51,963 nucleotides of DNA from Desulfobacterales bacterium RIFOXYA12_FULL_46_15. Its GTDB lineage: Bacteria; Desulfobacterota; Desulfobacteria; Desulfobacterales; Desulfobacteraceae. Position 1 is the first letter of the stretch; the number at the start of each line of letters is the position of its first letter. This document shows, one piece after another, positions 4,379 through 51,963 of this stretch. Made by a program: the position numbers and the translations under genes. The stretch lies in the NCBI GenBank assembly GCA_001799395.1, contig MGTJ01000061.1, forward strand, positions 1 through 51,963. The letters are read 5' to 3'. The notes beneath the pieces were generated by a model that saw only the letters and a program-made list of their open reading frames with translations, was not told the DNA's origin and searched no databases.

Positions 4379-4454
4379 TCCCCAGTAGCTCAGTTGGCAG
4401 AGCAATTGGCTGTTAACCAATGGGTCCGCGGTTCAAGTCCGTGCTGGGGAGCCA
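4379..4454 (+). tRNA. tRNA-Asn (anticodon GTT)
   Basis: A 76-base cloverleaf can be folded by eye. The acceptor stem TCCCCAG pairs with CTGGGGA, and a G discriminator and encoded CCA (4452-4454) follow. The D arm contains AGCTCAGTTGGCAGAGC. The anticodon stem ATTGG/CCAAT (4405-4409 and 4417-4421) encloses the loop CTGTTAA with anticodon GTT at 4412-4414. The T arm contains GGTTCAAGTCC. GTT reads AAC/AAU, giving asparagine. A promoter-like sequence lies just upstream and an intrinsic terminator 16 bases downstream, so it looks monocistronic. Confidence 0.98.
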
Positions 4455-4470
4455 ACCTAAATAAAGCATA

Positions 4471-4500
4471 TCCCGGTAAGGAAACTTACCGGGATTTTTT
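4471..4500 (+). terminator. Rho-independent terminator of tRNA-Asn
   Basis: A perfect 10-base-pair stem (TCCCGGTAAG / CTTACCGGGA) with a GAAA tetraloop is followed by six T residues. It ends the tRNA transcript. On the other strand the stem is not followed by a T-run, so it is a weaker terminator for the convergent AI-2E permease gene. Confidence 0.93.
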
Positions 4501-4526
4501 ATTGCCCTTTTATGAAATATCAAATT

Positions 4527-5717
4527 TTACCGTTGATCCTGTTCGGACAGAAAGGTTTTGAATTCAATGCTGTAAATATAAAGCAGCACCAGGGCAAGGC
4601 CAAACAAGAGAGGACCGTAAAGCAGTCCCAAGAGGCCGAAACTGTTGATTCCCCCCAGGATGGAAAAAAAGATCAAAAGGGTGTTCATTTCCGACCCGTT
4701 CTGCATGAAAAGAGGGCGCACAAAATTATCGATCCCGCCAACCACAATAGCACACCAAAGCACTAGGAAAAGAGATAGCCAGGGACTTTTTGAAACAACC
4801 AGGTAAAGGGCCGCAGGAATCCATATCAGAGCCGTACCCACGATGGGAATCAGGGATGCAAAGGCCATGACCATGCCCCAGAAAAGACCGGGAAGACCGC
4901 AAATATAAAAAGCGATTCCACCGGCAATGCCCTGGGCCAGGGCCGTGACAAAGGTTCCCAGCAGAGCGGATTTGGCGATTTCCTTGATTTTGCTGATAAT
5001 CTGTATTTCCTGGCTGTGGCTGAGGGGGGTCACATGTAAAATCCGGTTCCATATCCGGGCTTCATCCCTGATCAAAAAGAAAAAGGTGAAAATCATCAGG
5101 CAGAATTTACCGATCAGAGAACCGATATTCCCCATCAGATGACCGCCCTGGTTTAGAAGGGTTTTTCCCATGTCGGCCGTAGTATCCATAACCAGCTTAT
5201 CCACTTTAAGATTTGAAAGATTTAAATCCGGAAATACTTTTCTGATATCCGGAAGATATTGATTAAACCATTCATATAGCTTTACGGTAAGGGGATGTTC
5301 CATGATGACCCTGTATTTCCCGGCTGCTATCCAGTCATACATGGCATTAAATGAGGAAGCACCCTGCTGGATCAGCGAAAGCAGGAGGAATAACAGCGGG
5401 ATGACGACCACTGTGGTGAGCAGAAGGCAGGACACGAGAGCCGAGATATTTTTCCGGTTGCCCAGAAAGGTTTCGATTCGCCGGTGGGCAGGGCCTGCCA
5501 CAAAGGAAAGAATTGTGGCAAGCAGGATGGTATGGATGTAAGGCCGGATGATGGCGAAACATCCAATAAAAACAACGGCCATGAGAAAAAAAAGAAAATA
5601 TTGGGAATTTGGTTTAAAATGCGTATCATCCAAGGTTGCTGACCGGTTTGGTAATGGACTTGACGGGACGTTTTTTTTTTTAAAGTTTTGAGGATGGCGT
5701 TTTTTTGTTTGCGTCAT
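4527..5717 (-). CDS. AI-2E family transporter (PerM/YhhT-like permease)
   Basis: Predicted 396-residue integral membrane protein. After a polar N-terminus (1-38) come hydrophobic segments around 40-60, 63-83 and 95-118, a soluble loop (120-200), and a cluster of membrane helices to residue 385. The conserved C-terminal signature includes P-L-S-H-S-Q-E, A-L-L-G-T-F-V-T-A-L-A-Q-G-I, G-L-P-G-L-F-W-G and I-P-I-V-G-T-A-L-I-W-I-P. These are typical of the AI-2E transporter/PerM family (PF01594), whose members include the AI-2 exporter TqsA and Na+/H+ antiporters. The actual substrate cannot be told from sequence. It is a single gene converging on tRNA-Asn. Confidence 0.88.
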   Translation of the reverse strand: MTQTKKRHPQNFKKKNVPSSPLPNRSATLDDTHFKPNSQYFLFFLMAVVFIGCFAIIRPYIHTILLATILSFVAGPAHRRIETFLGNRKNISALVSCLLLTTVVVIPLLFLLLSLIQQGASSFNAMYDWIAAGKYRVIMEHPLTVKLYEWFNQYLPDIRKVFPDLNLSNLKVDKLVMDTTADMGKTLLNQGGHLMGNIGSLIGKFCLMIFTFFFLIRDEARIWNRILHVTPLSHSQEIQIISKIKEIAKSALLGTFVTALAQGIAGGIAFYICGLPGLFWGMVMAFASLIPIVGTALIWIPAALYLVVSKSPWLSLFLVLWCAIVVGGIDNFVRPLFMQNGSEMNTLLIFFSILGGINSFGLLGLLYGPLLFGLALVLLYIYSIEFKTFLSEQDQR

Positions 5718-5963
5718 GAGTTCCTGATCCGTTTATCATTGTTAACTCTTATCATCAGGATTAGAGTAGAAGCTTTTATATTGTCAATCAAAATTAAAAA
5801 AATTCATGATTTTTCACAAGTTTTTTTAAGATGTCCGGAAGATGTTCTTCGTATTGACAGTATTGAGGTTTGAATGGTACTGAATCCGAAAACGTATTGT
5901 TGTTCAAGCCTTTAAGATGAACGGCAATAACCTGGATTGACTACTAAAGGGAACATTTGATCC

Positions 5964-8174
5964 ATGACAATCAGAAAAAAAACACTGGGAGTTATTTTCT
6001 CGCTCTTTTTATTCATGGGCCTCGTTGTTTATATCATTATCCGTTTTGTACTGATAAACGGATATATTGAATTGGAGACAGAGGACATGATCAAGACCAC
6101 GGACCAGGTATCCAATCAGATGAAAGATGATTTGCTGAAGCTGAAAACCACAGTTGGAGACTGGGCGCCCTGGAATGACACCTATCAGTTTATCCAGGAA
6201 TTGAATGAATCTTATATTCAAAACAATCTGATGTATACAACCATTGCCAACCTCAATATCAATTTCATGCTGTTTATCGGTAATGACGGAAGATTAAAAT
6301 ACGTCAGGGGGATTGATACGGAGAATGAAACGGCAATACAGGAAAAGAATGATGCTTATCTCCCGCTTCTGGAAGAAAACCCTGTCCTGCAAAGAAGCGA
6401 GACACAAAATGAGATCGTCGCAGGATATGCCCGGTTCAATGATAAGATTGTGCGTCTCTCTTCAGCTCCGATTATGACCAGTCAATTTCAAGGCCCGGTC
6501 ATGGGAACGCTTGTCATCGGAAATTATATCAACAGCCGTGAAATAGATCACATTGAAGAAAAATTAAAGCTTCCCCTGGAGATAAAAAAGATCGATCCGG
6601 GCAAACCTGTTGAAGATTTTTCAATAAATAAGATCCTGCCCCAGGGCCATCGGTTTCTGATCAAACGGACGGACAGCTTGGCCATCACTTCATCCGTATT
6701 ATTTGAAAGTCTTTCGGGAAAACCGCTTTTTATTGTGGAAATGAAAAAAAGAAGAGATGTTTATATCCAAGGGGTGCATACGCTGAACTATCTTCTTCTG
6801 GCGCTTGGCATCGTCAGCCTGTTCTTTATGGCAATAATGTTGATCTACCTTGAAAAGAACGTTCTTTACAGGTTGCTCAGATTAAGCATGGATGTAAAAA
6901 AAATCACCCTGAGTGGTCATGGCAATAACCGGATCATGGTATCCGGAAGGGATGAAATATCTTCCTTGTCCCTTGATATCAACCAGATGCTGGAAAAATT
7001 GTGGGAAAATGAAAAGCGGTATCAAATCCTGTTCGAATCTGCCAGTGATGCCATCCTGTTGTTAAAGGGGGATAAGATTGTTGATTGTAATCTTAAGACC
7101 CTTGAACTCTTTGGTTGTGAGAAGAATCAGGCTATCGGAAAGAGCCCCTGCTTTTTTTCCCCGGAAATGCAACCGGACGGGCGGCTGTCCGACCGGAAAT
7201 TCAGGGATATTATCGAAACTTCTTTTTCAAAAGATTCTCTTCTTTTTGAATGGCTTTATTTAAATAAAGATAAAACAGTCTTTGAAACTGAAATGAATCT
7301 GACCTGTATCAGTCTTCCGTCAGGTGACCATATCCAGGCGATTATCCGGGATATAACCGAACGGAAACAGTCTCAGAGGATCATCATGCAGACGGAAAAA
7401 ATGCTTTCATTGGGAGGGCTGGCTGCTGGAATGGCCCATGAAATCAATAATCCTCTGTCAGGAATGATGCAGAATGCCCAGTTGATAGAGAACCGGCTAT
7501 CGAGAAACCTGCCGGTTAATGTTAAGGCAGCAGAGGAGGCAGGTACGACACTTTCTTCGATTAACGCATATATGGAAAACAGGAATATTCTAAAGCTGTT
7601 GCGATCCATTAACAATTCCGGAATCCAGGCTGCAAAAATTGTGGCAAACATGTTGCGGTTTGCCCGCAAAGATAATTCTGAAAAACTGTCCGATAATATC
7701 GTGGCCCTTCTGGACAATACCATTGAGCTATCTCAGAGTGATTACAGCCTGAAATCAAATTATGATTTTAAAAAAATTAAAATTACACGGGAATATGAAT
7801 CCGACCTGTTGTTCATATCCTGTCACAGCAGTAGTTTGCAGCAGGTTTTCTTTAATATTATAAAAAATGCAGCAGAGGCTATTTTCAATTCCCCTGGGAA
7901 AGATAAAGCTCCTGAACTGATTTTCAGGATAATGAAGAATGATGCAATGGCCCGGGTTGAAATTGAAGACAATGGCCCTGGAATTGAAGAAAAAGTGCAG
8001 AAGAGCATATTTGAGCCCTTTTTTACGACAAAGGGACCAAAAGAAGGCACAGGGCTTGGCCTTTCGGTTTCCTATTTTATTATTGTCACTGATCACGGCG
8101 GAAAGATCACTGTAGAATCAGCCATGGGAAAGGGCACAAAATTCATTATTGAACTCCCCCTCATGACCTCGTAA
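5964..8174 (+). CDS. Sensor histidine kinase: CHASE4-HAMP-PAS-HisKA-HATPase
   Basis: Predicted 736-residue membrane kinase. A membrane segment lies at about 8-30. A periplasmic region (35-270) begins with the CHASE4-like pattern D-W-A-P-W-N-D-T-Y. The second membrane segment is at about 274-297, followed by HAMP (to 350), a PAS domain (351-470) and HisKA with phospho-acceptor H492 in G-M-A-H-E-I-N-N-P. A long helical insertion follows the H-box before the HATPase domain (618-733), which has D-N-G-P-G-I and G-T-G-L-G-L-S. The ligand is unknown; CHASE4 is a predicted small-molecule sensor. No response regulator is next to it: the downstream genes are convergent. It is an orphan kinase whose partner may be one of the stand-alone regulators nearby. 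Confidence 0.9.
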   Translation: MTIRKKTLGVIFSLFLFMGLVVYIIIRFVLINGYIELETEDMIKTTDQVSNQMKDDLLKLKTTVGDWAPWNDTYQFIQELNESYIQNNLMYTTIANLNINFMLFIGNDGRLKYVRGIDTENETAIQEKNDAYLPLLEENPVLQRSETQNEIVAGYARFNDKIVRLSSAPIMTSQFQGPVMGTLVIGNYINSREIDHIEEKLKLPLEIKKIDPGKPVEDFSINKILPQGHRFLIKRTDSLAITSSVLFESLSGKPLFIVEMKKRRDVYIQGVHTLNYLLLALGIVSLFFMAIMLIYLEKNVLYRLLRLSMDVKKITLSGHGNNRIMVSGRDEISSLSLDINQMLEKLWENEKRYQILFESASDAILLLKGDKIVDCNLKTLELFGCEKNQAIGKSPCFFSPEMQPDGRLSDRKFRDIIETSFSKDSLLFEWLYLNKDKTVFETEMNLTCISLPSGDHIQAIIRDITERKQSQRIIMQTEKMLSLGGLAAGMAHEINNPLSGMMQNAQLIENRLSRNLPVNVKAAEEAGTTLSSINAYMENRNILKLLRSINNSGIQAAKIVANMLRFARKDNSEKLSDNIVALLDNTIELSQSDYSLKSNYDFKKIKITREYESDLLFISCHSSSLQQVFFNIIKNAAEAIFNSPGKDKAPELIFRIMKNDAMARVEIEDNGPGIEEKVQKSIFEPFFTTKGPKEGTGLGLSVSYFIIVTDHGGKITVESAMGKGTKFIIELPLMTS

Positions 8175-8206
8175 CGTTCCTGCCTATAGGGGGGATATCC
8201 GGCTGA

Positions 8207-9049
8207 TCAGTTTTTTATCCATTTGTGAAACATGAGCAGCATCAGGTAAGTCGTCCCGCTTAAGATAATTATGGCAGGGCCGCTGGAAAGACTGAACGTA
8301 TAGCTCAACAAGAGACCGGCAGATGTAAAAAAAGAGCACAGCAGGATGGAAAAAAACATCATCTGCCACAGCCTTTTAGCAAAAAAGGAAGCAATGGCCG
8401 GGGGGATGGTCAAAAGTGCGATGACCAGTACAATCCCAACGATCCTGACCAGCAGGACCACGGTCAGAGAGGTTAGAATCAAAAGCAGAAGATAGAAAAA
8501 AGTCGTATTGATTCCCCTCAAAGACATGAATTCGCTGTCAAAGCAGACACTGAAAAACCGGTTGAAAAAAAGAATACTGGTACCGAGAACCAGGGCATCC
8601 AGGCTTCCTACAAAAACAAGGTCTTTTTTTGAAATCAGCAGGATATCACCGAAGAGATAGGATGAAAGGTTGAAATAACCGGCCGTCCTGTCGATGAAAA
8701 GGATACCGGCAGCCATGCCCACGGCCCAGAGTGTTCCTATGATGGTATCTTCTCTTTCTTTTGCATGAAGACTGACAAGTCCTATGATGACTGCGGATAT
8801 GACTGCTGCAAGCGTTGCGCCGAGGATGGGGTCAAACCAGGCAAGCCCGGCATTGACCTGAAGAAAAAGGGCCAGGCCGATACCGCCGAACACGGAATGA
8901 GAAATGGCGCCGGCAAGGTATCCGATTCTTTTAATGGTCACAAAAGTGCCGATGATGCCAAAGGAAACAGAGGCAAGACAGCCCATGATCAAGGCATATC
9001 TTAAAAACAAATTGTCCGGGTCAAGGAGGGCATAAATGGCGTCAATCAT
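8207..9049 (-). CDS. ABC-3 family metal-ion permease (ZnuB/MntB-like)
   Basis: Predicted 280-residue membrane protein with 8-9 hydrophobic helices. Family signatures include G-x-I-G-T-F-V-T-I-K-R, A-G-A-I-S-H-S-V-F-G-G-I-G-L-A-L and L-T-I-P-P-A-I-A-S, which mark the ABC-3 (Zn/Mn/Fe) permease family. The start is placed at ATG 9049, overlapping the ATPase gene by 8 bases. An in-frame ATG at 9082 would add 11 residues and is possible, since neither start has a strong ribosome binding site. It pairs with the ATPase upstream to form the membrane part of a metal importer. No periplasmic metal-binding protein gene is present here. Confidence 0.9.
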   Translation of the reverse strand: MIDAIYALLDPDNLFLRYALIMGCLASVSFGIIGTFVTIKRIGYLAGAISHSVFGGIGLALFLQVNAGLAWFDPILGATLAAVISAVIIGLVSLHAKEREDTIIGTLWAVGMAAGILFIDRTAGYFNLSSYLFGDILLISKKDLVFVGSLDALVLGTSILFFNRFFSVCFDSEFMSLRGINTTFFYLLLLILTSLTVVLLVRIVGIVLVIALLTIPPAIASFFAKRLWQMMFFSILLCSFFTSAGLLLSYTFSLSSGPAIIILSGTTYLMLLMFHKWIKN

Positions 9050-27401: not shown

Positions 27402-29624
27402 ATGAGAACACCTATAGAAATTTTCCAGGCCCTGCCCATCCGCTTCAAGATGTTCTATACATATTCCGTGCTGTTTTCTGTCATGATCCTTTTTGGGGGC
27501 TTAAGCGTTTTTCTCAGCGTGGGCAACACCCTGGAACAGAAAATTGAAAGCGAATTGAGCAATGCCACGGAACGTATCCTCAACATGGTGAGAACAACAG
27601 CAAACGCTTCTGTAAAAAACTATCTGAGAGCAGTTGCCGAGAAAAATTATGAGATTGTTTCTCTTTATCACAAAGCCGTCCTTGATGGAGATTTCACTCA
27701 GGAAGAGGCCCAGTCAAAACTCAGGAAAATCCTGTCTGGCCAGAAAATAGGCAGGACAGGATATATCTATTGTCTGGATTCAAACGGAACTGCTGTAGTA
27801 CATCCCAACTCCAGTGTTGCAGGCCATAGTTTCACCCAGTTTGAATTCATCAGGGAACAGATGCAAAGAAAAGACGGATACCTTGAATATGAATGGAAAA
27901 ATCCGGAAGAAGATAATTCCCGGCCAAAAGCCCTTTATATGACCTATTTCGAGCCCTGGGACTGGATCATTTCCGTTTCCTCCTACAGGGAGGAATTCAG
28001 TGAGTTGATCAATATCTCCAATTTTAAAGACAGCATCATGTCTCTTAAATTCGGCAGATCCGGGTACTCCTATGTGATAGACAGCACTGGCCAGGTGATT
28101 GTCCATCCTTTCCTTTCGGGCAACCTGTATGACGCAAGGGATGCTGACGGCCAGTATCTGGTGCGGCACCAGTGCGAAACAAAGAACGGCAAGCTGATCT
28201 ATTCCTGGCGGAACCCAGGGGAGAAAATCCATAGGAAAAAGATAGTCATCTATAATTATATTCCTGAGTACGACTGGATCGTTGCATCCTCAGGATACCT
28301 TGAAGAGCTTTATGAGCCCCTGAAATCAGTGCGCAATATTTTTTTATTAATGTTTTTTGTCATCCTCATCCTGGTTATCCCTGCCACCCTGTTTATTGCA
28401 GGCGGGATTACAGGCTCCCTGAAACAATTGGAAAAACAGTTGATCCAAGGGGCGGACGGCGATTTTACAGGACGGATGTCGACCAGTGAAAGGGATTCAA
28501 ACGGAGCTGGAGATGAAATCAGGAAACTGGCAGTCTATTACAATAGTTTTATGGACCGCCTGGAGCAATATAAAAGAAAAATTGAGGCTGAGGCCAGTGA
28601 AAGGAAAATAGCAGCAGAATCTCTTAAAAAAAGCGAGGAAAAATACCGTACTATCCTGGAAAACATTGAGGATGGTTATTTTGAAATTGATAACCAGGAT
28701 AGGTTTGTTTTTTTCAATAGTTCCATGATGCGCATTACAGGCTTTTCAGATGAAGATCTTAAAACTCTCACGAGGGAAGGTATTTCCGCTCCAAAAGGAG
28801 CAGACCGCATCAGAAAAGTTTTTTTACGTTTATGGGAGACTACCGAAGCATGCAGGGCAATGGAATGGACAATACTGAAAAATGACGGAACCTTCTGCCA
28901 CACCGAAACATCCTTGTCCGTCATACCTGATTCCCAGGGCAGGATTGTCGGTATCAGAGGAGTTATGCGGGATGTGACGGAAAAACACGAAGCCAAGCGA
29001 CTGGAACAGGAAATCATTGATATCAGCGAGCGTGAGCGGATGCAGATAGGCCAGTACCTTCATGATGATCTTTCCTCACACCTTCTGGGAATCGAAGTCA
29101 TGCATTCACTTCTGGAAAAGAAATTGACCAGGCTCGGGTATGCAGAGCTTGTTTCCGTGGGAAAGATACGCGGGCTCGTCTTGGAAGCCATTGACAAGAT
29201 TGGCCGTATTTCAAGAGGGTTGTGCCCGGTCAACATAGTCGAACAGGGGCTGGAATTCGCTTTGCGTGAGCTCTGCTATGACATAGAGAAGATCTATAAT
29301 GTGGCCTGCATCCTGAACAGCGGCGGCTACCAGTTCCGGAAGGATGACAGGGCTGCCGTGCATATATATTATATCGCAAGGGAGGCTGCGTTCAACGCAG
29401 TTAAACACGGCCTGGCTGATACAATAAGGCTGAACCTGGAAAAGCGTGGTAACAGGACAAGGCTTGAAATCAGGGACAATGGCAGCGGCCTGCCTGAGAA
29501 CATAGTGCCAAAGGGTATGGGGCTTCGCATCATGCAGTACAGGGCAAGGAGAATAGGCGCGATTCTTGAAGCCAGGGGGTCAAAGGATTCCGGGTCTGTT
29601 ATTTCGTTAACCTTTAATGATTAA
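27402..29624 (+). CDS. Sensor histidine kinase: double Cache-HAMP-PAS-HisKA_3-HATPase
   Basis: Predicted 740-residue membrane kinase. A membrane segment lies at about 18-40. Two tandem Cache modules share internal similarity: residues 112-195 with G-R-T-G-Y-I-Y and 217-300 with G-R-S-G-Y-S-Y-V, each followed by a D-W-I-(I/V)-(S/A)-(V/S)-S motif. The second membrane segment (about 313-335) leads to HAMP, PAS (413-530), a NarL-type HisKA_3 with H554 in Y-L-H-D-D-L-S-S-H-L, and HATPase (647-738). Cache domains usually bind small metabolites such as carboxylates or amino acids. The gene starts 4 bases after cheB and is followed within 11 bases by a LuxR-type regulator, its likely partner. Confidence 0.93.
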   Translation: MRTPIEIFQALPIRFKMFYTYSVLFSVMILFGGLSVFLSVGNTLEQKIESELSNATERILNMVRTTANASVKNYLRAVAEKNYEIVSLYHKAVLDGDFTQEEAQSKLRKILSGQKIGRTGYIYCLDSNGTAVVHPNSSVAGHSFTQFEFIREQMQRKDGYLEYEWKNPEEDNSRPKALYMTYFEPWDWIISVSSYREEFSELINISNFKDSIMSLKFGRSGYSYVIDSTGQVIVHPFLSGNLYDARDADGQYLVRHQCETKNGKLIYSWRNPGEKIHRKKIVIYNYIPEYDWIVASSGYLEELYEPLKSVRNIFLLMFFVILILVIPATLFIAGGITGSLKQLEKQLIQGADGDFTGRMSTSERDSNGAGDEIRKLAVYYNSFMDRLEQYKRKIEAEASERKIAAESLKKSEEKYRTILENIEDGYFEIDNQDRFVFFNSSMMRITGFSDEDLKTLTREGISAPKGADRIRKVFLRLWETTEACRAMEWTILKNDGTFCHTETSLSVIPDSQGRIVGIRGVMRDVTEKHEAKRLEQEIIDISERERMQIGQYLHDDLSSHLLGIEVMHSLLEKKLTRLGYAELVSVGKIRGLVLEAIDKIGRISRGLCPVNIVEQGLEFALRELCYDIEKIYNVACILNSGGYQFRKDDRAAVHIYYIAREAAFNAVKHGLADTIRLNLEKRGNRTRLEIRDNGSGLPENIVPKGMGLRIMQYRARRIGAILEARGSKDSGSVISLTFND

Positions 29625-29635
29625 AGGAATGGCAT

Positions 29636-30319
29636 ATGTATCACTCGACAGGGAAAATAAAAAAAACCAGCAAGATACTCATTGTTGAGGACCACCCCAT
29701 ATTCCGCATGGGGCTTGCCGACCTTATCAATGACGAGGAAGACCTGGAAGTCTGCGGTACGGCAGAAGATGTGGACAGCGCAGTCCGGGCTGTCGAAACC
29801 CTCTTGCCTGACATGGTTGTGATTGATCTTTCCCTGAAGAAGAGCAACGGGTTTGATCTGCTCAGGCTCCTCGCCAGGCAAAACAGAGCCTTGCCCTTGC
29901 TGGTGCTTTCCATGCATGACGAAGAGGTCCATGCCGAACGCTGCCTTCATGAAGGGGCCAGGGGCTATATCAACAAGAAAGAGGCTTCAGGCTCAGTGAT
30001 CAAGGCCATCCGCCATATACTCAAGGGGAATATCTTCCTCAGCCGTTCCATGACTGAATCCGTCCTTAACAAGTTCAGGCTCGAGCCGGATCTTCCCTAT
30101 GCATCACCAGTGCAGAAGCTCAGCCACCGTGAACTCCAGGTATTTTATTCCATAGGCAAGGGAAAAAGCTCCAGAGCAATTGCCAGGGAATTGAATGTCA
30201 GTACAAAAACCATAGGCACCCACAAAGAAAGGATAAAGGAAAAACTTCTTTTGGGGAGTGCAGCTGAGCTGGTACGCTTTGCCATTCTCTGGGTCGAAAA
30301 AGAGGGCCAGATGGAATAA
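29636..30319 (+). CDS. NarL/LuxR-family response regulator
   Basis: Predicted 227-residue regulator. The receiver (13-130) has acidic residues in V-E-D-H-P, acceptor aspartate in D-M-V-V-I-D-L-S-L-K and lysine in Y-I-N-K-K-E. The C-terminal LuxR-type helix-turn-helix (about 160-222) has L-S-H-R-E-L-Q-V, R-A-I-A-R-E-L-N-V-S-T-K-T-I-G-T-H and A-E-L-V-R-F-A. Together with the preceding HisKA_3 kinase it forms a standard NarL-type pair. The next gene, after a 238-base gap, is a permease followed by an acyl-CoA synthetase; these are candidate targets. An inverted repeat in that gap (30410-30430) is a possible binding site. Confidence 0.94.
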   Translation: MYHSTGKIKKTSKILIVEDHPIFRMGLADLINDEEDLEVCGTAEDVDSAVRAVETLLPDMVVIDLSLKKSNGFDLLRLLARQNRALPLLVLSMHDEEVHAERCLHEGARGYINKKEASGSVIKAIRHILKGNIFLSRSMTESVLNKFRLEPDLPYASPVQKLSHRELQVFYSIGKGKSSRAIARELNVSTKTIGTHKERIKEKLLLGSAAELVRFAILWVEKEGQME

Positions 30320-30409
30320 AGAGGTATTTCACCTATAGGCTGTCCGGGTTTTTCCCCTTTGTTTTTTTCATCCTTTTACATTCTTTAAAATCAGTTGAGT
30401 GAGTATTTA

Positions 30410-30430
30410 CACATAGAAAGATTATATGTG
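30410..30430. promoter_or_regulatory. Inverted repeat upstream of the permease gene, possible operator
   Basis: The arms CACATA (30410-30415) and TATGTG (30425-30430) are perfect inverted repeats separated by 9 bases, giving a 21-base dyad about 130 bases before the permease start. LuxR/NarL-type regulators commonly bind such short dyads. It lies just after the NarL-type regulator gene. No strong -35/-10 pair could be fixed. It is short enough to arise by chance. Confidence 0.3.
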
Positions 30431-30557
30431 AATATCCGAATTGAAAAGCCAAAGCTGCATACCCTTTTCTCCTGATGTTCATGGACGGGGGGCTTAATTT
30501 AAAATGCATACAGGCTTTTAGGCAGCTTTATTACACTCAATTAAAAGGAGGAATAGC

Positions 30558-31925
30558 ATGGCAATTAATCGTGATCCAGGCCAGGTTCAACCCGGGATAA
30601 AATGGTGGCGTTTTACCGCACGCATCCCAGGGGTACATATTGGGTTTTCCTGGCCGGAAATCATCCAGGGCGGACTTTTAACCACGGCAACAGCCGGGGT
30701 AGTGGCAGGTCTTTGCATGAAATATTTCAATGTCCCTTTTGAAGTGGCCTGGTCGGTAATGTTTGTACAGTTGCTATGGCTTGTGGCTCAGCCTCTTCTT
30801 TTCGGAGAGCCCTACGCACCTGGCTGGATTACACCGGCCCTTCCTCTTGTCATGGGTTTTCTTGCTCAATTCACTGCCGGCCCTGCTGCTGTTCAGGCAA
30901 TGACAGCGGTCACCATATGGGTGTCTGCTATATTCTTGTTTTTTGCCGTCACAGGCCTTGGCTCCCGCTTTTTTAAATGGGTTCCTGTGGAGCTGAGGGC
31001 CGCGATTATTTTTGGAGGTGCGATTTCCGCATTTAATACTGAATTTGCAAGGCTTGAAAAAATGCCCTACACCCTTCCCATTGTCTGGGGTGTGGTCTTT
31101 TTATTGATGTTTTCCGTTTGGTTTTCCAAAGCCAAGGACAAGATCAGGCTGTTCAAGTTGATGGCAAGCATGGCCATGCTGGTGGGATTTCTTACAGCAG
31201 CGGTAGTCGGCCCCTTATTTGGAGAGCTTTCTTTTGATATCAAGATGGGTTTCTACCTTCCTGAGTTTGGGGCTTATTTTTCGGCTGTTTCCCCGTTCTG
31301 TGTAGGCTGGCCTAGCCTTGACATGTATATCAAGGCATTTCCCCTGGCCATCATGGTTTATATTTTCGTTTTCGGAGACATAGTGCTTGCCAATACTCTT
31401 ATCGAGCAGGCAGGAGAAGTCCGCAAGGATGAGAAAATTGAAATCGACAATACAAGGACACACTTTACCCTGTTTTTTAAGAATATAGGCCATCTGCTCC
31501 TGGCAGGCCCCTTTATCCCGCTGCACGGGCCCATGTGGACAGGTGTCCATGTCTTCCTGGTCGAACGTTACAAATCCGGCCGTAAAAATATGGATTCCAT
31601 ATTCACAGGGATTTTCAACTGGTACTGGCCTGCCTTTCTGCTCGCTCTTCTGGTTCCTGTGGTTACATTCATGAAGCCTCTTTTGCCTGTAGCCCTCTCC
31701 ATCACATTGATCCTCACCGGATTTGCCTGCGCCTACGTCGCAATTTCCCTTGTCAAAACACCTGCAAGCCAGGGATATGCATTTTTTGTGGGCATGGCTA
31801 TAGCCAAGTTCGGACCGGCCTGGGGCTTAGGTATAGGAATAGGACTCTATCTTCTTCTTCTGCTCAAGGAATTTCCGCCTTTTGGCGCGAAACAGGCTGA
31901 GGTGCAAGGGAATTCAGAAGCTTGA
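30558..31925 (+). CDS. Multi-pass membrane transporter, NCS2/SulP-like fold suspected
   Basis: Predicted 455-residue protein with about 12-13 hydrophobic helices and short polar ends. The N-terminal segment (W-W-R-F-T-A-R-I-P-G) is followed by helices with small residues and prolines. A patch near residues 270-290 (V-F-G-D-I-V-L-A-N-T-L-I-E) recalls the substrate-site helix of NCS2 (xanthine/uracil) permeases. I cannot name the family with confidence. A perfect AAAGGAGG precedes ATG 30558. The downstream gene (acyl-CoA synthetase) lies 36 bases on and the upstream pair is a Cache kinase with a LuxR regulator. This setting suggests uptake of a carboxylic acid that is then activated with CoA; that function is inferred. 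Confidence 0.75.
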   Translation: MAINRDPGQVQPGIKWWRFTARIPGVHIGFSWPEIIQGGLLTTATAGVVAGLCMKYFNVPFEVAWSVMFVQLLWLVAQPLLFGEPYAPGWITPALPLVMGFLAQFTAGPAAVQAMTAVTIWVSAIFLFFAVTGLGSRFFKWVPVELRAAIIFGGAISAFNTEFARLEKMPYTLPIVWGVVFLLMFSVWFSKAKDKIRLFKLMASMAMLVGFLTAAVVGPLFGELSFDIKMGFYLPEFGAYFSAVSPFCVGWPSLDMYIKAFPLAIMVYIFVFGDIVLANTLIEQAGEVRKDEKIEIDNTRTHFTLFFKNIGHLLLAGPFIPLHGPMWTGVHVFLVERYKSGRKNMDSIFTGIFNWYWPAFLLALLVPVVTFMKPLLPVALSITLILTGFACAYVAISLVKTPASQGYAFFVGMAIAKFGPAWGLGIGIGLYLLLLLKEFPPFGAKQAEVQGNSEA

Positions 31926-31961
31926 AAATTTATGGCAATTGCTAAACAAGGAGTGAGAAAG

Positions 31962-33560
31962 ATGAACTTTTCTTCAGTAAATTTTGAAAATTTGACCCCT
32001 GTCAACTTCGTCAAGAGGAGCGCGGCAGTTTATCCGGACAAAGCTGCTGTTGTAAACGGTTCGAAGATATACAGCTACAGGATGTTTTTTTTGCGTATCA
32101 ACAGGCTGGCAAGCGCATTGAAAAAGATCGGTATCGGCAAAGGCGACAAAGTGGCTTTTATTGCACCCAATATTCCTCCCATGCTTGAGGCCCATTTTGC
32201 TGTACCCATGATAGGTGCTGTCCTCGTGACTATCAATATCAGGCTCTCTCCCGGCGAGGTAGCTTTTATACTTAAACATTCGGATGCCAGGGTCTGTTTT
32301 GTGGATAATGAATTCGCAGGGCTTGTCAAGCCTGTCCTGTCAGATCTGCCGGATGTCAGGAAATTCATCAATATTTGTGATGTGGACGATGGCCGGCCCC
32401 TCGAGGGCCAGGACTATGAATCCTTTCTTGAAACAGGCTCGCCGGCCGAGATGGACATTGATATTGACAGTGAGCTTGATGTTGCGGCAATCAACTACAC
32501 CAGCGGTACCACAGGAGAGCCCAAGGGCGTGATGTACCACCACAGGGGAGCTTATCTGAACAGCCTGGGGGACTGCCTGGAAATGAAGCTTTCCAGCGAT
32601 TCGGTATACTTGTGGACCCTTCCCATGTTTCATTGCAACGGATGGTGTTTTCCCTGGGCTGTCACTGCTGCCGGAGGAGTGCACGTCTGTTTGAGAAAAG
32701 TGGAGCCCGGCGAGATATTCGCCCTGATAGAAAGGGAAAATGTCTCCCACATGTGTGCCGCACCCGTTGTCCTTATTGCCATGGCCAACCATCCGGGGGC
32801 AAAGGAGATCAAGCTGAAGCGCACACTCGAAATAGCTACGGGCGGAGCGCCTCCGTCACCCACTATCCTGGGGCAGATGGAGGCTATGGGCGCAAATGTC
32901 ACTCATGTCTACGGTCTGACTGAAGTTTACGGGCCTTATACCATATGTGCCTGGCAAAAGGAGTGGAACAGTCTTCCTTCTGAAAAACGGGCAGTTCTCA
33001 AGTCCAGGCAGGGGGTTGCCTATACTGTTTGCCAGTTCCTTGATGTAAAGGACACAAACACCATGGAATCCGTGCCAAGGGATGGCAGGACCATAGGTGA
33101 GGTGGTGATGCGCGGCAACGTCGTGATGCAGGGCTATTACAAGGACCGGGCAGCAACGTCCAGAGCCTTTGACAACGGCTGGTTCCATTCAGGGGATCTT
33201 GCTGTCGTACACCCTGATAATTACATACAGATCATGGACAGGCAGAAGGATATCATCATCTCTGGGGGTGAAAACATCTCCACAGTAGAGATAGAAAATG
33301 TCCTTTACCGCCATCCTGATGTGATGGAGGTGGCAGTTGTGTCCATGCCTCATGAAAAATGGGGGGAAGTGCCCAAGGCTTTTATAACGCCTATGCCGGG
33401 TACCAGTCCTGATGCAGAAGAAATCATAGCCTTTTGCAGGGAAAATCTGGCCAGGTTCAAGGCTCCCAAGGCAGTGGAGTTTATAACCCTCCCGAAGACG
33501 TCCACAGGGAAAATCCAGAAATATATTCTCAGGAAAAGAGCATGGAACCAGGAAAGCTGA
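31962..33560 (+). CDS. AMP-forming acyl-CoA synthetase (fatty/aryl acid CoA ligase)
   Basis: Predicted 532-residue adenylate-forming ligase that would convert a carboxylic acid, ATP and CoA to acyl-CoA, AMP and PPi. Motifs in order: P-loop-like Y-T-S-G-T-T-G-E-P-K-G, then L-P-M-F-H-C-N-G-W, G-G-A-P-P-S and Y-G-L-T-E-V-Y-G, then W-F-H-S-G-D-L and D-R-Q-K-D-I-I-I-S-G-G-E-N-I-S. The C-terminal catalytic lysine lies in P-K-T-S-T-G-K-I-Q-K. The sequence feel is that of the AlkK/DmdB-like group of medium-chain or methylmercaptopropionate-type ligases. The start is ATG 31962 with AAGGAG at 31948-31953; ATG 31932 lacks a ribosome binding site. The substrate is not decided by sequence. Confidence 0.9.
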   Translation: MNFSSVNFENLTPVNFVKRSAAVYPDKAAVVNGSKIYSYRMFFLRINRLASALKKIGIGKGDKVAFIAPNIPPMLEAHFAVPMIGAVLVTINIRLSPGEVAFILKHSDARVCFVDNEFAGLVKPVLSDLPDVRKFINICDVDDGRPLEGQDYESFLETGSPAEMDIDIDSELDVAAINYTSGTTGEPKGVMYHHRGAYLNSLGDCLEMKLSSDSVYLWTLPMFHCNGWCFPWAVTAAGGVHVCLRKVEPGEIFALIERENVSHMCAAPVVLIAMANHPGAKEIKLKRTLEIATGGAPPSPTILGQMEAMGANVTHVYGLTEVYGPYTICAWQKEWNSLPSEKRAVLKSRQGVAYTVCQFLDVKDTNTMESVPRDGRTIGEVVMRGNVVMQGYYKDRAATSRAFDNGWFHSGDLAVVHPDNYIQIMDRQKDIIISGGENISTVEIENVLYRHPDVMEVAVVSMPHEKWGEVPKAFITPMPGTSPDAEEIIAFCRENLARFKAPKAVEFITLPKTSTGKIQKYILRKRAWNQES

Positions 33561-38386: not shown

Positions 38387-38596
38387 ATGGAATTTCTGAA
38401 TCAGGAACTATTAGAGTTCGCTTATATCTTTCAATGTGAAGGGGTGTCTGCCAGGTCATTTCAGGATATCTTAGGGTGCAGCGGCAAGACAGCCAAAGAT
38501 CTTCAAATGGAAATAGCACGACTGGAGCCCTGGCAAATGATCAGCAGAAGTTCAGTTAAGACAGAAGAGTTTGCTAAATTCACAGTGGAAGCTTAG
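38387..38596 (+). CDS. Possible small protein of 69 residues
   Basis: A short reading frame with ATG at 38387, no good ribosome binding site, and a helical, mildly amphipathic product (starts M-E-F-L-N-Q-E-L-L-E-F-A). The region G-V-S-A-R-S-F-Q-D-I-L-G-C-S-G-K-T-A-K-D-L looks helix-turn-helix-like. Its last 4 bases overlap the 3' end of the convergent LuxR-type gene. No family is recognised. It may be real or a chance open frame. Confidence 0.35.
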   Translation: MEFLNQELLEFAYIFQCEGVSARSFQDILGCSGKTAKDLQMEIARLEPWQMISRSSVKTEEFAKFTVEA

Positions 38597-48572: not shown

Positions 48573-50858
48573 ATGGATACACGGGAAATAATCGATAAGA
48601 TTTTCAAAGATCCGAAGACAAAATATTTCATGAAAAGCTTTGTCCCGTTTGCCTCGGGTAAAGAAGAAATACAGGTCTTTGCCGAAAACGGGAAATCATC
48701 ACCTGAGGAGATTGTCCGGCAGCTATGGGTGTATAAACTGATCCATACCTATGGATATCAGGCTGATGAAATCGAATTGGAAAAAAGCGTCTATTTCGGT
48801 TCAAAAGAAGGTACAAAAGCAGCGGATATCATCGTCTACACCGACAATTCAAAACAAACCCCGAAAATTATCATTGAGGTAAAGAAACCAAAACGGAAAG
48901 ACGGGATTGAACAACTCAAAAGCTATCTGAATGCTGAAGGTTCTCCTGTGGGCCTCTGGTCCAACGGCAGTGAGCGTATTATCCTGTATCGTCCCTATCC
49001 CAAAGATTTTGAAGACACTTTGTATGAACTGCCCAAACGGGGCCAGGAACCCAAAGATGTTCTGGAAGCAAGAAAAACCCTGGGACATTTAAAACGAAAT
49101 TTTAATTTTAAAAAGATTATTCAGGATATTGAAGAGCTTGTTCTGGCAGACAGTGGGAAAGACGAATTCAATGAAATTTTTAAACTGATATTTGCCAAAA
49201 TCTGGGATGAAAAAGAAGCAGACGAAAAACGGAAAGACAAAACCGTTGAATTCAGCAAGGCCCTGGACCCGGAAATCACCTATGACCGCATCAACAATCT
49301 CTTTCAGAAAGCATGCAAAGAATGGCCCGGTATTTTCCGCGACGGCGAGAATATAGAACTGACAAAGCGGCATTTGCAAATCTGTATCGGCCCCATTGAA
49401 GGCATCCGGCTCATGGGTTCAAACCTGAGAATCATGGAATTCTGCTATCCGGCTGCCGACAATGCAAGCCGTGAACTTCGGATGCACAAATATGCATCCA
49501 AATACCTGTGGGGCATTGATTTTGAGGAACGGGCCGCCAAAACCTCACGGGCGTTGATGCTCATAGCCGGTGACGGGCACACCAATATTTTCGGTCCAGA
49601 TGTTTCCAGCCTGGACCCTAAAACCTGGCATGAAACCCTGTCCGGTCAAACCCTGATGCAGGAGCTGATTAAGGCCAAACTTCTGATTCGCAAAATTGCC
49701 AGGGAAGATGAAGGGAATATCCTCAGGGATGAAGATCTGTCCTGGAAATATTTTGATGAACTGGCCTTTGATGTTGTCCTGCCCCAGGGCAAATTCAACA
49801 ATTCTTCCCTTGCCTTTATCCGGGAATGTATATTGAGAAAAGCAAGGCTTCTGGCAGTGGTCGGGCTTCATCCCAATACCTTCAAACCCCACACCGGAAC
49901 AAAAACTTCAGTGCTTTTTGTACAAAAATATACCGAAGGCCAGTTGGCTAATATTGAAAACGTAAAAAACAGTGTGGCCGCATCCTGCCCGGATTACAGA
50001 GAACAGATCGCGGTACTGCTGCGAAATAATATCTATGAAACCGATATTCCGGAACAGGAAATTCCTGAGGTGATCCTGGAAATCATCCTGGAAAATTTCT
50101 CAGAACCGGACCCGGATATGGCAGACTCCGGTGAAGATTCATCAGATTTCGGCATGGCCGCAGAAGGTGCCCCCTCCCTTGAAGATCAGATTGAACAGGC
50201 CAATGAAAAGATTGCAGACCTGCACAAAGAGCTTTTGGCGGCCAAAACCCGGCAGATGGATTTTGACAGTGATCTTGAGGCGTTAAAAGGAAAAACGGAT
50301 CAGGAGATAAAGCTGATATCCGATTCCTGGAACGAGACAACGGCTGCTTTGAACAAAATCCTTAAGCCCATAAAAGACCGGTTAAAATCCGAGACAAAAG
50401 CCTTAAAGGAAAGCCAGAAAGAACCCAGAAAAAAAACTGCTGCCTTGATCCATTCCCTTGAAACCGCTCTGGCCCAGGCAGAATATGAAAAAAAGCTGCT
50501 CTCCTTTAAGGGGAAACTGTCACTGATTCTGGAAGATGACGATATGATCGGAACCTTAAAGGAGCGCTGGATAGATGCAGAGGTGGCGAGACAACTGGAT
50601 TATCCTATTTTCATGGCCGTCAGCGAACGGGGCGGGAAAAACAATTCAGGGGATTATGAATACCGGGTGGATGAAAACGGCAACCTCCTGGAAGATGAGT
50701 CCGGCCAGTTCGTCATTGACCAGGATCTGGTCAACTATGCCCTGAAATCTGAGGACCTTGCAGATGCCGAATCTCTGCCCGAGGACCGGCTTTGTGTGGC
50801 CGAAGCCTTTGTCAGGTTTGCCCGGAAACATGGCCTTGAGTTCTGGAGGGCTGATTGA
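48573..50858 (+). CDS. Type I/IIG-like DNA modification protein lacking methyltransferase motifs I and IV
   Basis: Predicted 761-residue protein. The N-terminal HSDR_N-like nuclease region has D85 in A-A-D-I-I-V-Y and E102-V-K104 in I-I-I-E-V-K-K, a PD-(D/E)xK-type pattern. Residues about 185-288 match the segment just before the catalytic domain of N6-adenine methylases. The text then jumps from S-N-L-R-I-M (to 288) to E-F-C-Y-P-A-A-D-N-A-S, so Q-F-F-T-P-R and motif I (D-P-A-C-G-S-G-G-F) are absent. A second jump, F-D-V-V to L-P-Q-G-K-F (near 401), removes motif IV (N-P-P-F). The C-terminus has coiled coils (about 535-680). ATG 48573; the stop overlaps the S-subunit start by one base. Either natural in-frame loss or an assembly artefact is possible. 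Confidence 0.8.
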   Translation: MDTREIIDKIFKDPKTKYFMKSFVPFASGKEEIQVFAENGKSSPEEIVRQLWVYKLIHTYGYQADEIELEKSVYFGSKEGTKAADIIVYTDNSKQTPKIIIEVKKPKRKDGIEQLKSYLNAEGSPVGLWSNGSERIILYRPYPKDFEDTLYELPKRGQEPKDVLEARKTLGHLKRNFNFKKIIQDIEELVLADSGKDEFNEIFKLIFAKIWDEKEADEKRKDKTVEFSKALDPEITYDRINNLFQKACKEWPGIFRDGENIELTKRHLQICIGPIEGIRLMGSNLRIMEFCYPAADNASRELRMHKYASKYLWGIDFEERAAKTSRALMLIAGDGHTNIFGPDVSSLDPKTWHETLSGQTLMQELIKAKLLIRKIAREDEGNILRDEDLSWKYFDELAFDVVLPQGKFNNSSLAFIRECILRKARLLAVVGLHPNTFKPHTGTKTSVLFVQKYTEGQLANIENVKNSVAASCPDYREQIAVLLRNNIYETDIPEQEIPEVILEIILENFSEPDPDMADSGEDSSDFGMAAEGAPSLEDQIEQANEKIADLHKELLAAKTRQMDFDSDLEALKGKTDQEIKLISDSWNETTAALNKILKPIKDRLKSETKALKESQKEPRKKTAALIHSLETALAQAEYEKKLLSFKGKLSLILEDDDMIGTLKERWIDAEVARQLDYPIFMAVSERGGKNNSGDYEYRVDENGNLLEDESGQFVIDQDLVNYALKSEDLADAESLPEDRLCVAEAFVRFARKHGLEFWRAD

Positions 50859-51963
50859 TGGCGGTTTGGAGTGAAACAAATATTATTGAAACAATGCGAA
50901 ATAAACGAATAGATAGTGAATTTTTTCATCCGCAATATATAGCTTTTGAGAGTGTTGTTGAAAAAATACAAAATGCACGGCTTGGAATGCTTGGACAATT
51001 CGTCATTGGACCATTTGGTTCAGCCTTTCATGTAAATAATTATGATTCGAATTCACCCTTTCGGTATATCCGAGGAAAAGATGTGAAACCTTTTCGATTA
51101 TTGGAGGATGATAACGTCTATATGCCTGAAAAAGATTATTTTAGACTTCATAAGTATGCAATCTGCCAGGATGATTTAATCATATCTGTTGTCGGGACGT
51201 TAGGCAATGTTGCTATCATTCCAGAAGATGAAAAAGGAATTTTTAGCTGTAAAAGCACTTTATTTCGTAACCCAAAGATTGATGCACATTATTTATTGGC
51301 ATACCTGAATTCCAAATATGGTAATAGTTGTTTATTGAGAAGGCAACGTGGAGCGGTTCAAACCGGATTAAACAAAGAAGATTTAAAAACAGTTCCGGTT
51401 GCTCTTGCGTCTCAAAAAAAACAAGAAATGATAAGCAGCTTGGTAAAAAACGCATTGAAATGTTCAAAAACAAGTAAATCTCTCTACACTGAAGCCCAAA
51501 AGCTTCTTGAACTGGAATTTGGGCTTGATAAAGTGAAAGTTAAAAAGACCACGGGATATATCGGAAGTTTTAGTAAGGTTGTCCTTTCTTCAAGAACAGA
51601 TGCAGAATTTTTCTATCCTGAGTTTGACATTCTTTCCAGCAATTTGCCTAAACATATTAATTTCAGTTCGTTATCCAAAGCCCTATCTTTCTGTCAGCGA
51701 GGAAAGCAGCCTGTTTATAGTGATGCAGGACTTACTGTAATTAATTCCAAGAACGTTTTGGCCAATAAAATTAATATTGAAAATACCCGATTCGCCCAGC
51801 CACCTATATTCCCTGAATTGAAAATCCAATATGGAGATGTTCTAATAAATGGAACCGGTCGAGGAACAATTGGGCGCGCGGCACCGTATCTTGAAAATGC
51901 AGAAGCTTTGCCTGACAATCATGTGACAATTTTGAGAACGCCGGGAATCGACCCTGTATTTTT
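50858..51963 (+). CDS. hsdS: Type I-like restriction specificity subunit (HsdS), partial
   Basis: A frame open from ATG 50858 to the right edge (368 codons, no stop), so the gene is truncated by the window. Its ATG shares one base with the upstream stop. The product has the two-target-recognition-domain layout of S subunits: domain 1 begins with L-G-Q-F-V-I-G-P-F-G-S-A-F and ends before a helical conserved region at about 185-215 (A-Q-K-L-L-E-L-E-F-G-L). Domain 2 begins near 220, with L-I-N-G-T-G-R-G-T-I-G-R-A late in the visible part. It would choose the DNA sequence bound by the complex. It is visibly more AT-rich than the preceding gene, which is common for exchanged specificity genes. No hsdR is in the window. 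Confidence 0.9.
   Translation, partial: MAVWSETNIIETMRNKRIDSEFFHPQYIAFESVVEKIQNARLGMLGQFVIGPFGSAFHVNNYDSNSPFRYIRGKDVKPFRLLEDDNVYMPEKDYFRLHKYAICQDDLIISVVGTLGNVAIIPEDEKGIFSCKSTLFRNPKIDAHYLLAYLNSKYGNSCLLRRQRGAVQTGLNKEDLKTVPVALASQKKQEMISSLVKNALKCSKTSKSLYTEAQKLLELEFGLDKVKVKKTTGYIGSFSKVVLSSRTDAEFFYPEFDILSSNLPKHINFSSLSKALSFCQRGKQPVYSDAGLTVINSKNVLANKINIENTRFAQPPIFPELKIQYGDVLINGTGRGTIGRAAPYLENAEALPDNHVTILRTPGIDPVF

Follow-up and report, generated by a model that had tools for sequence, protein, structure and literature searches.

A methylase gene without motifs I and IV: probable part of an eroding BsaXI-like defence island

An open reading frame (ORF) that has lost both catalytic blocks of a methylase and still reads through may encode a protein selected for another role, or it may be what is left of a gene that is being lost. 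This question was raised by the ORF at 48573-50858 of the window, the whole 51,963-nt stretch of DNA that was analysed. The window is the complete contig C61 of a Desulfobacterales draft genome of 250 contigs (estimated 96.4% complete and 4.8% contaminated); the gene stands near the end of this contig, which ends inside the neighbouring hsdS. The reading that we prefer, with a rough probability of 0.72, is that the gene is part of an eroding defence island, composed of a BsaXI-like restriction-modification (RM) protein, a specificity (S) subunit, a DndD-like ATPase and a DndE-HerA fusion, and lost by deletion. The features concerned are as follows.

38401..38592, + strand: what remains of a second DndE-HerA gene (a C-terminal relic with 90% identity to the copy on contig C153)
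46988..48286, + strand: MFS transporter flanking the island, the empty-site neighbour in the same-genus genomes G017 and G013
48573..50858, + strand: RM-fusion remnant (HSDR_N_2-like nuclease domain, N6 adenine methylase and C-terminal part), 761 aa compared with 914 aa in the intact G342 copy
48613..48626, + strand: joint 1, 102 bp (34 aa) lost in frame after FKDP, from the alignment to intact homologues
48825..48884, + strand: nuclease-like residues D85 and E102-x-K104, kept; they align with BsaXI D90, E105 and K107 in a weak 7-bit stretch
49433..49440, + strand: joint 2, 168 bp (56 aa) lost in frame after NLRI, from the alignment; the block with QFFTPR and DPACGS (motif X/I)
49770..49778, + strand: joint 3, 177 bp (59 aa) lost in frame after FDV, from the alignment; the NPPF (motif IV) block and the residues following it
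50855..51963, + strand: hsdS-like specificity subunit, 369 codons open, then the contig end

Gaps in the RM-fusion protein

The protein passes directly from NLRIM to EFCYPAADN at 49434-49440 and from FDVV to LPQGKF at about 49770-49778. Gap sizes were taken from an alignment with five intact homologues (G342, G026, G044, G127 and G054), in which all three gaps of the window copy were filled (5/5). The two in-frame gaps that the initial annotation had described at motifs I and IV are both present and measure 56 and 59 residues; its count was incomplete, having missed the third gap of 34 aa at joint 1. Joint 1 sits within a TKY-like repeat seen in relatives, and CATGGA was found at both ends of joint 2 in the four intact relatives placed by the script. 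Over the first ~280 residues, the copies of the same family in G026, G044 and G054 were 75-83% identical to the window copy.

The closest intact copy, 914 aa long, was found in the 3-contig genome G342. Pfam assigned HSDR_N_2, N6_Mtase (124 bits) and Eco57I to it; in the window protein, HSDR_N_2 was the only domain above the cut-off, and no N6_Mtase match was reported. The Pfam domains of the G342 copy and its match to RM.BsaXI indicate that the window gene goes back to a nuclease-methylase fusion. By the features of a type IIB enzyme, the window copy lacks the SAM-binding motif I block (168 bp missing) and the catalytic motif IV NPPF (177 bp missing), and its chain still carries the nuclease residues (D, E-x-K). 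With the motif X/I block and the motif IV block wholly gone, the product cannot act as a methyltransferase, in line with the methyltransferase-dead protein proposed at the outset. As had been noted, the protein keeps D85, E102 and K104 of its nuclease-like part, and the claim that the S subunit is kept holds for its first 369 codons, which are open; beyond them the contig ends.

Motifs I and IV were sought elsewhere in the protein and in a close second copy in the genome, and both were ruled out by the alignment and the own-genome search. No close second copy of the missing blocks was present on other contigs of the genome bin, and the other own-genome matches to these blocks were methylases on contigs C37, C159 and C193 at 31-44% identity. 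A contig search gave one 28% match, and viral contigs gave no confirmed relative.

Island layout and damage to the partner genes

The intact order in G342 is RM fusion, S, a DUF1016/YhcG nuclease, a 204-aa gene, the DndD-like ATPase and the DndE-HerA fusion (L077:4510-14024, G342:C2). The own-genome matches to DUF1016, DndD and DndE-HerA were located on contig C153, which carries ABC exporter genes at 4390-8233. The site is empty in G017 and G013, where 528 and 516 bp, respectively, lie between the MFS end and the ABC exporter genes. The empty site therefore suggests that the C61 end and the C153 start are the two sides of one island, which would be joined in the cell. The island of G044 holds a DarT/DarG pair between S and the DndD-like gene (L024:6723-8434).

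Lesions on C153 were measured against G342. A 716-bp loss has joined the beginning of the small gene to DndD; within DndD, a loss of 145 bp is followed by the loss of 1 bp in an A-run (a frameshift) and then by one of 130 bp. A 260-bp loss takes in the end of DndD and the DndE domain, and a further loss of 145 bp covers the HerA block holding VIDEAHN, which we take to be Walker B. Four of the five large losses and the 1-bp loss recurred at the same places in comparisons with G026 and/or G044, where the 260-bp loss measured 261 and 263 bp and the 716-bp loss was not resolved. The DndD-like ATPase and the DndE-HerA fusion of this genome are thus both broken on C153. The DUF1016 gene is open over its 339 visible codons and, at one place, 36 bp (12 codons) shorter than in G342; the C153 tail after 3951 contains y195, which had no match, and the RadC-like z220, which matches in two frames. 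With this 36-bp difference and the unaligned tail left out, C61 and C153 together hold eight large deletions of 102-716 bp, seven of them between 102 and 260 bp. Two of the eight span gene boundaries, and three are multiples of three (2.7 expected).

Damage limited to the methylase gene was ruled out, since the partner genes are broken too, and disabling lesions of the kind counted for pseudogenes are spread over several island genes. Random decay had been judged hard to believe for the two methylase gaps. The partners speak against that judgement, with five more large deletions and a frameshift in the DndD-like gene, the DndE-HerA gene and the small gene. The clean in-frame gaps looked designed, and a word of caution is due: the partner genes on the other contig show like loss, mostly out of frame.

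In its intact form, such an island would rely on S to guide the RM protein to a split site, self DNA would be methylated and non-self DNA cut by that protein, and the ATPase pair would scan or pump DNA. The island appears to be patchily distributed among genomes. In the window's genome, deletions of 102-716 bp would have cut out the core of the methylase, large parts of the DndD-like protein, the DndE domain and, in HerA, the Walker B block. All three deletions within the methylase gene have lengths divisible by three, which leaves its ORF open. At the relic of the second DndE-HerA gene (192 bp at 38401-38592), G017 and G013 carry other short sequence. The window also contains a gene block at 27402-33560 with no syntenic match in G017 or G013, and the flanks of this block (window 27400 and 33577) are adjacent in these two genomes.

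Homologues, rates and rival explanations

Close homologues were counted at ~65% identity or more (n = 11 besides the window copy), from overlapping searches that sampled part of each group. Six were full length (G026, G342, G127, G044, G054 and G765), and five were broken or rearranged (G183, G210, G140, G101 and G265). The gaps of the window copy were seen in 0/11, and the orthologues sharing both gaps, proposed as a check by the initial annotation, were therefore not found among these homologues. G210 (L080:1410-3548) has an in-frame loss of its own, 176 aa long, which differs from the window's in that motif IV is gone and motif I is kept. G101 is truncated, and G140 carries a frameshift that could be a sequencing error. 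G183 and G265 are M-S fusions (L079:12804-15032 and L083:7955-8821), in which the methylase reading frame continues into the latter half of an S gene; G183, with the motif I and IV blocks kept, may function as a single-chain enzyme. Two Trichormus plasmid records contain a copy of full length, at 66%. The DndD gene was found as remnants in G054 and with one stop in G026, and just its last 127 residues were matched in G186. Because 5/11 homologues are damaged or rearranged, DndD remnants occur in relatives and a second DndE-HerA relic is present, loss is frequent in BsaXI-like RM/DndD/DndE-HerA islands.

The rate test on the methylase gene (M) used six of the eight alignment rows and left out the rearranged G183 and G210, whose rows start at an internal Met chosen by the script, so that their missing N-termini are no lesion. 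This test found no faster evolution of the M remnant compared with the intact copies. Sites invariant in the others were changed at 15/386 positions in the window copy, 16/387 in G342, 12/383 in G026 and 46/417 in G054, and the 15 changes of the window copy include the loss of two tryptophans (W>F and W>C). The dN/dS ratio was ~0.08, at a dS near or above 1.8 that is close to saturation, so the power is low. No stop codon was present in the nine aligned C153 stretches, and the stops that were flagged lie in frame-shifted ends; the remnants thus had neither a relaxed rate nor nonsense codons. Short indels (<10 bp) and premature stops are two of the commonest pseudogene lesions in the available part of PMC2916853, and the island differs from the pseudogenes described there in that large deletions dominate. 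Many large deletions without point decay therefore point either to recent, deletion-rich loss or to an assembly that dropped pieces. A limited literature search on MADS or deletion decay of RM genes found nothing.

In the second case, pieces would have been joined via short overlaps in a low-coverage or strain-variable island, with 100-700 bp dropped each time, and the real genome may hold an intact operon. The source is a 250-contig draft with the island split over two contigs, and seven of the eight lesions measure 102-260 bp, with flanks that evolve normally and contain no nonsense codons, all of which would fit such an artefact. So would the shared runs of 5-6 bp at two joints, one of 6 bp at M joint 2 (p 0.03-0.06 in four relatives) and one of 5 bp at the DndEH joint (p 0-0.06 in four relatives). 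Microhomology at the joints is weak overall; it was not significant at joint 3 or at the other C153 joints, and the script could not place joint 1. As a control, 26 non-island ORFs from 17072 on were taken, 21 with same-genus matches of at least 60% identity and five without. The largest window-specific loss within an aligned stretch of these 21 was 7 aa, and no loss of at least 10 residues was found within their aligned stretches against syntenic relatives, which is not what dropped pieces would lead one to expect. An artefact also sits poorly with the single loss of 716 bp, with the recurrence of losses of other kinds in the separate assemblies of relatives, and with the fact that no other contig of the genome bin carries the missing blocks. 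We regard it as unlikely. What favours real loss is that the control region is clean, that one deletion measures 716 bp, that the window contains a second relic and that relatives have suffered losses of their own. We infer that the lesions belong to the genome rather than to the assembly, and that the product is without function.

A selected, methylase-dead protein would instead bind DNA together with S and would work as an effector with nuclease activity only, as a regulator or by blocking sites in a dominant-negative manner. The frame was kept in 3/3 M deletions, for which the chance is 1/27, the residues D85, E102 and K104 are kept, and the remainder is under constraint. The M deletions also lie in blocks more conserved than random (74% invariant compared with 55% expected, p 0.05). 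When three M deletions were placed at random, both motifs were touched in 2.6% of cases and one or both in 35%. For M, DndD and DndEH jointly, the deleted blocks were 70% invariant compared with 61% expected (p 0.07), and no conservation bias was found for DndD alone or DndEH alone (p 0.52 and 0.41). A preference of the deletions for conserved blocks is thus not clearly shown, and the M statistics deviate mildly, in a gene chosen for this very appearance.

A precedent for an inactive methylase domain comes from DndH, whose DAM domain is without catalytic activity and has both motifs eroded, as the available part of PMC10853773 describes. By analogy, a thrice-shortened, nuclease-bearing partner of S might have been selected in frame, as a domesticated leftover like that domain, and would block or cut unmodified sites; we give this version hardly any credence. 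In the window protein the loss goes beyond single residues, with whole blocks of the methylase fold missing, and an active nuclease that had lost its methylase would attack the host's own DNA unless a different methylase protects those sites. Damage has also reached the partner genes, and the gaps recur in none of the 11 other close homologues. A selected methylase-dead protein is therefore very improbable, and the purposeful nuclease-only module or regulator that had been suggested for this gene finds little positive support beyond the open frame.

Comparison with known systems

Among solved structures, the best match of the intact G342 homologue was RM.BsaXI (type IIB, PDB 8w0p; E 2.6e-27), with which it shares an N-terminal nuclease domain, a methylase, a C-terminal part and a separate S subunit. 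BsaXI forms an (RM)2S complex with the nuclease residues E73, D90, E105 and K107, according to the available part of PMC11997821; D90, E105 and K107 align with D85, E102 and K104 of the window protein, in a stretch that scores just 7 bits alone. The window copy differs from RM.BsaXI in lacking motif X/I, motif IV and an N-terminal block, and the island operon differs in adding DndD-like and DndE-HerA genes.

The methylase core and the S partner also resemble type I HsdM/HsdS (EcoKI M, 2y7c), and the PADLOC model MTase_I (PDLC03034) matched M of G026 at 4.5e-154 and M of the window at 3.6e-102. The fusion of a nuclease domain to M sets the island protein apart from type I, and the ten G342 proteins scanned with Pfam included no HsdR-type motor protein. 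To MADS there is a likeness in three components, as the intact M, S and DndEH of G342 matched PADLOC mad2, mad5 and mad8 (1.9e-32, 8.8e-28 and 1e-21), the only members of the mad1-mad8 set among the matches listed for the ten G342 proteins.

The ATPase pair resembles a DndD/CxC ABC ATPase (DndD match 2e-134) and a DndE-HerA fusion (clade-3 HerA/FtsK), in which a DndE domain is joined to a HerA/DndH-like C-terminus. Neither DndA nor DndC of DndABCDE phosphorothioation turned up in the Pfam scan of ten proteins from the region of the intact operon in G342, or among the PADLOC matches listed for that operon. A gene pair of a DndD-like protein and a DndE-fused clade-3 HerA/FtsK is described in PMC10853773 (section 22). 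In the available part of that source it goes with cytosine methylases and phosphorothioation, whereas the island pairs it with an N6 adenine RM protein and S, and in the genome of the window both DndD and DndE-HerA are broken. A BsaXI-like RM protein and S paired with DndD-like and DndE-HerA proteins was not found in a limited literature search that included the same part of PMC10853773. The more useful by-product of the analysis is the operon of the intact relative, in which a BsaXI-like RM protein and S stand together with a DndD-like ATPase and DndE-HerA, a combination worth a functional test.
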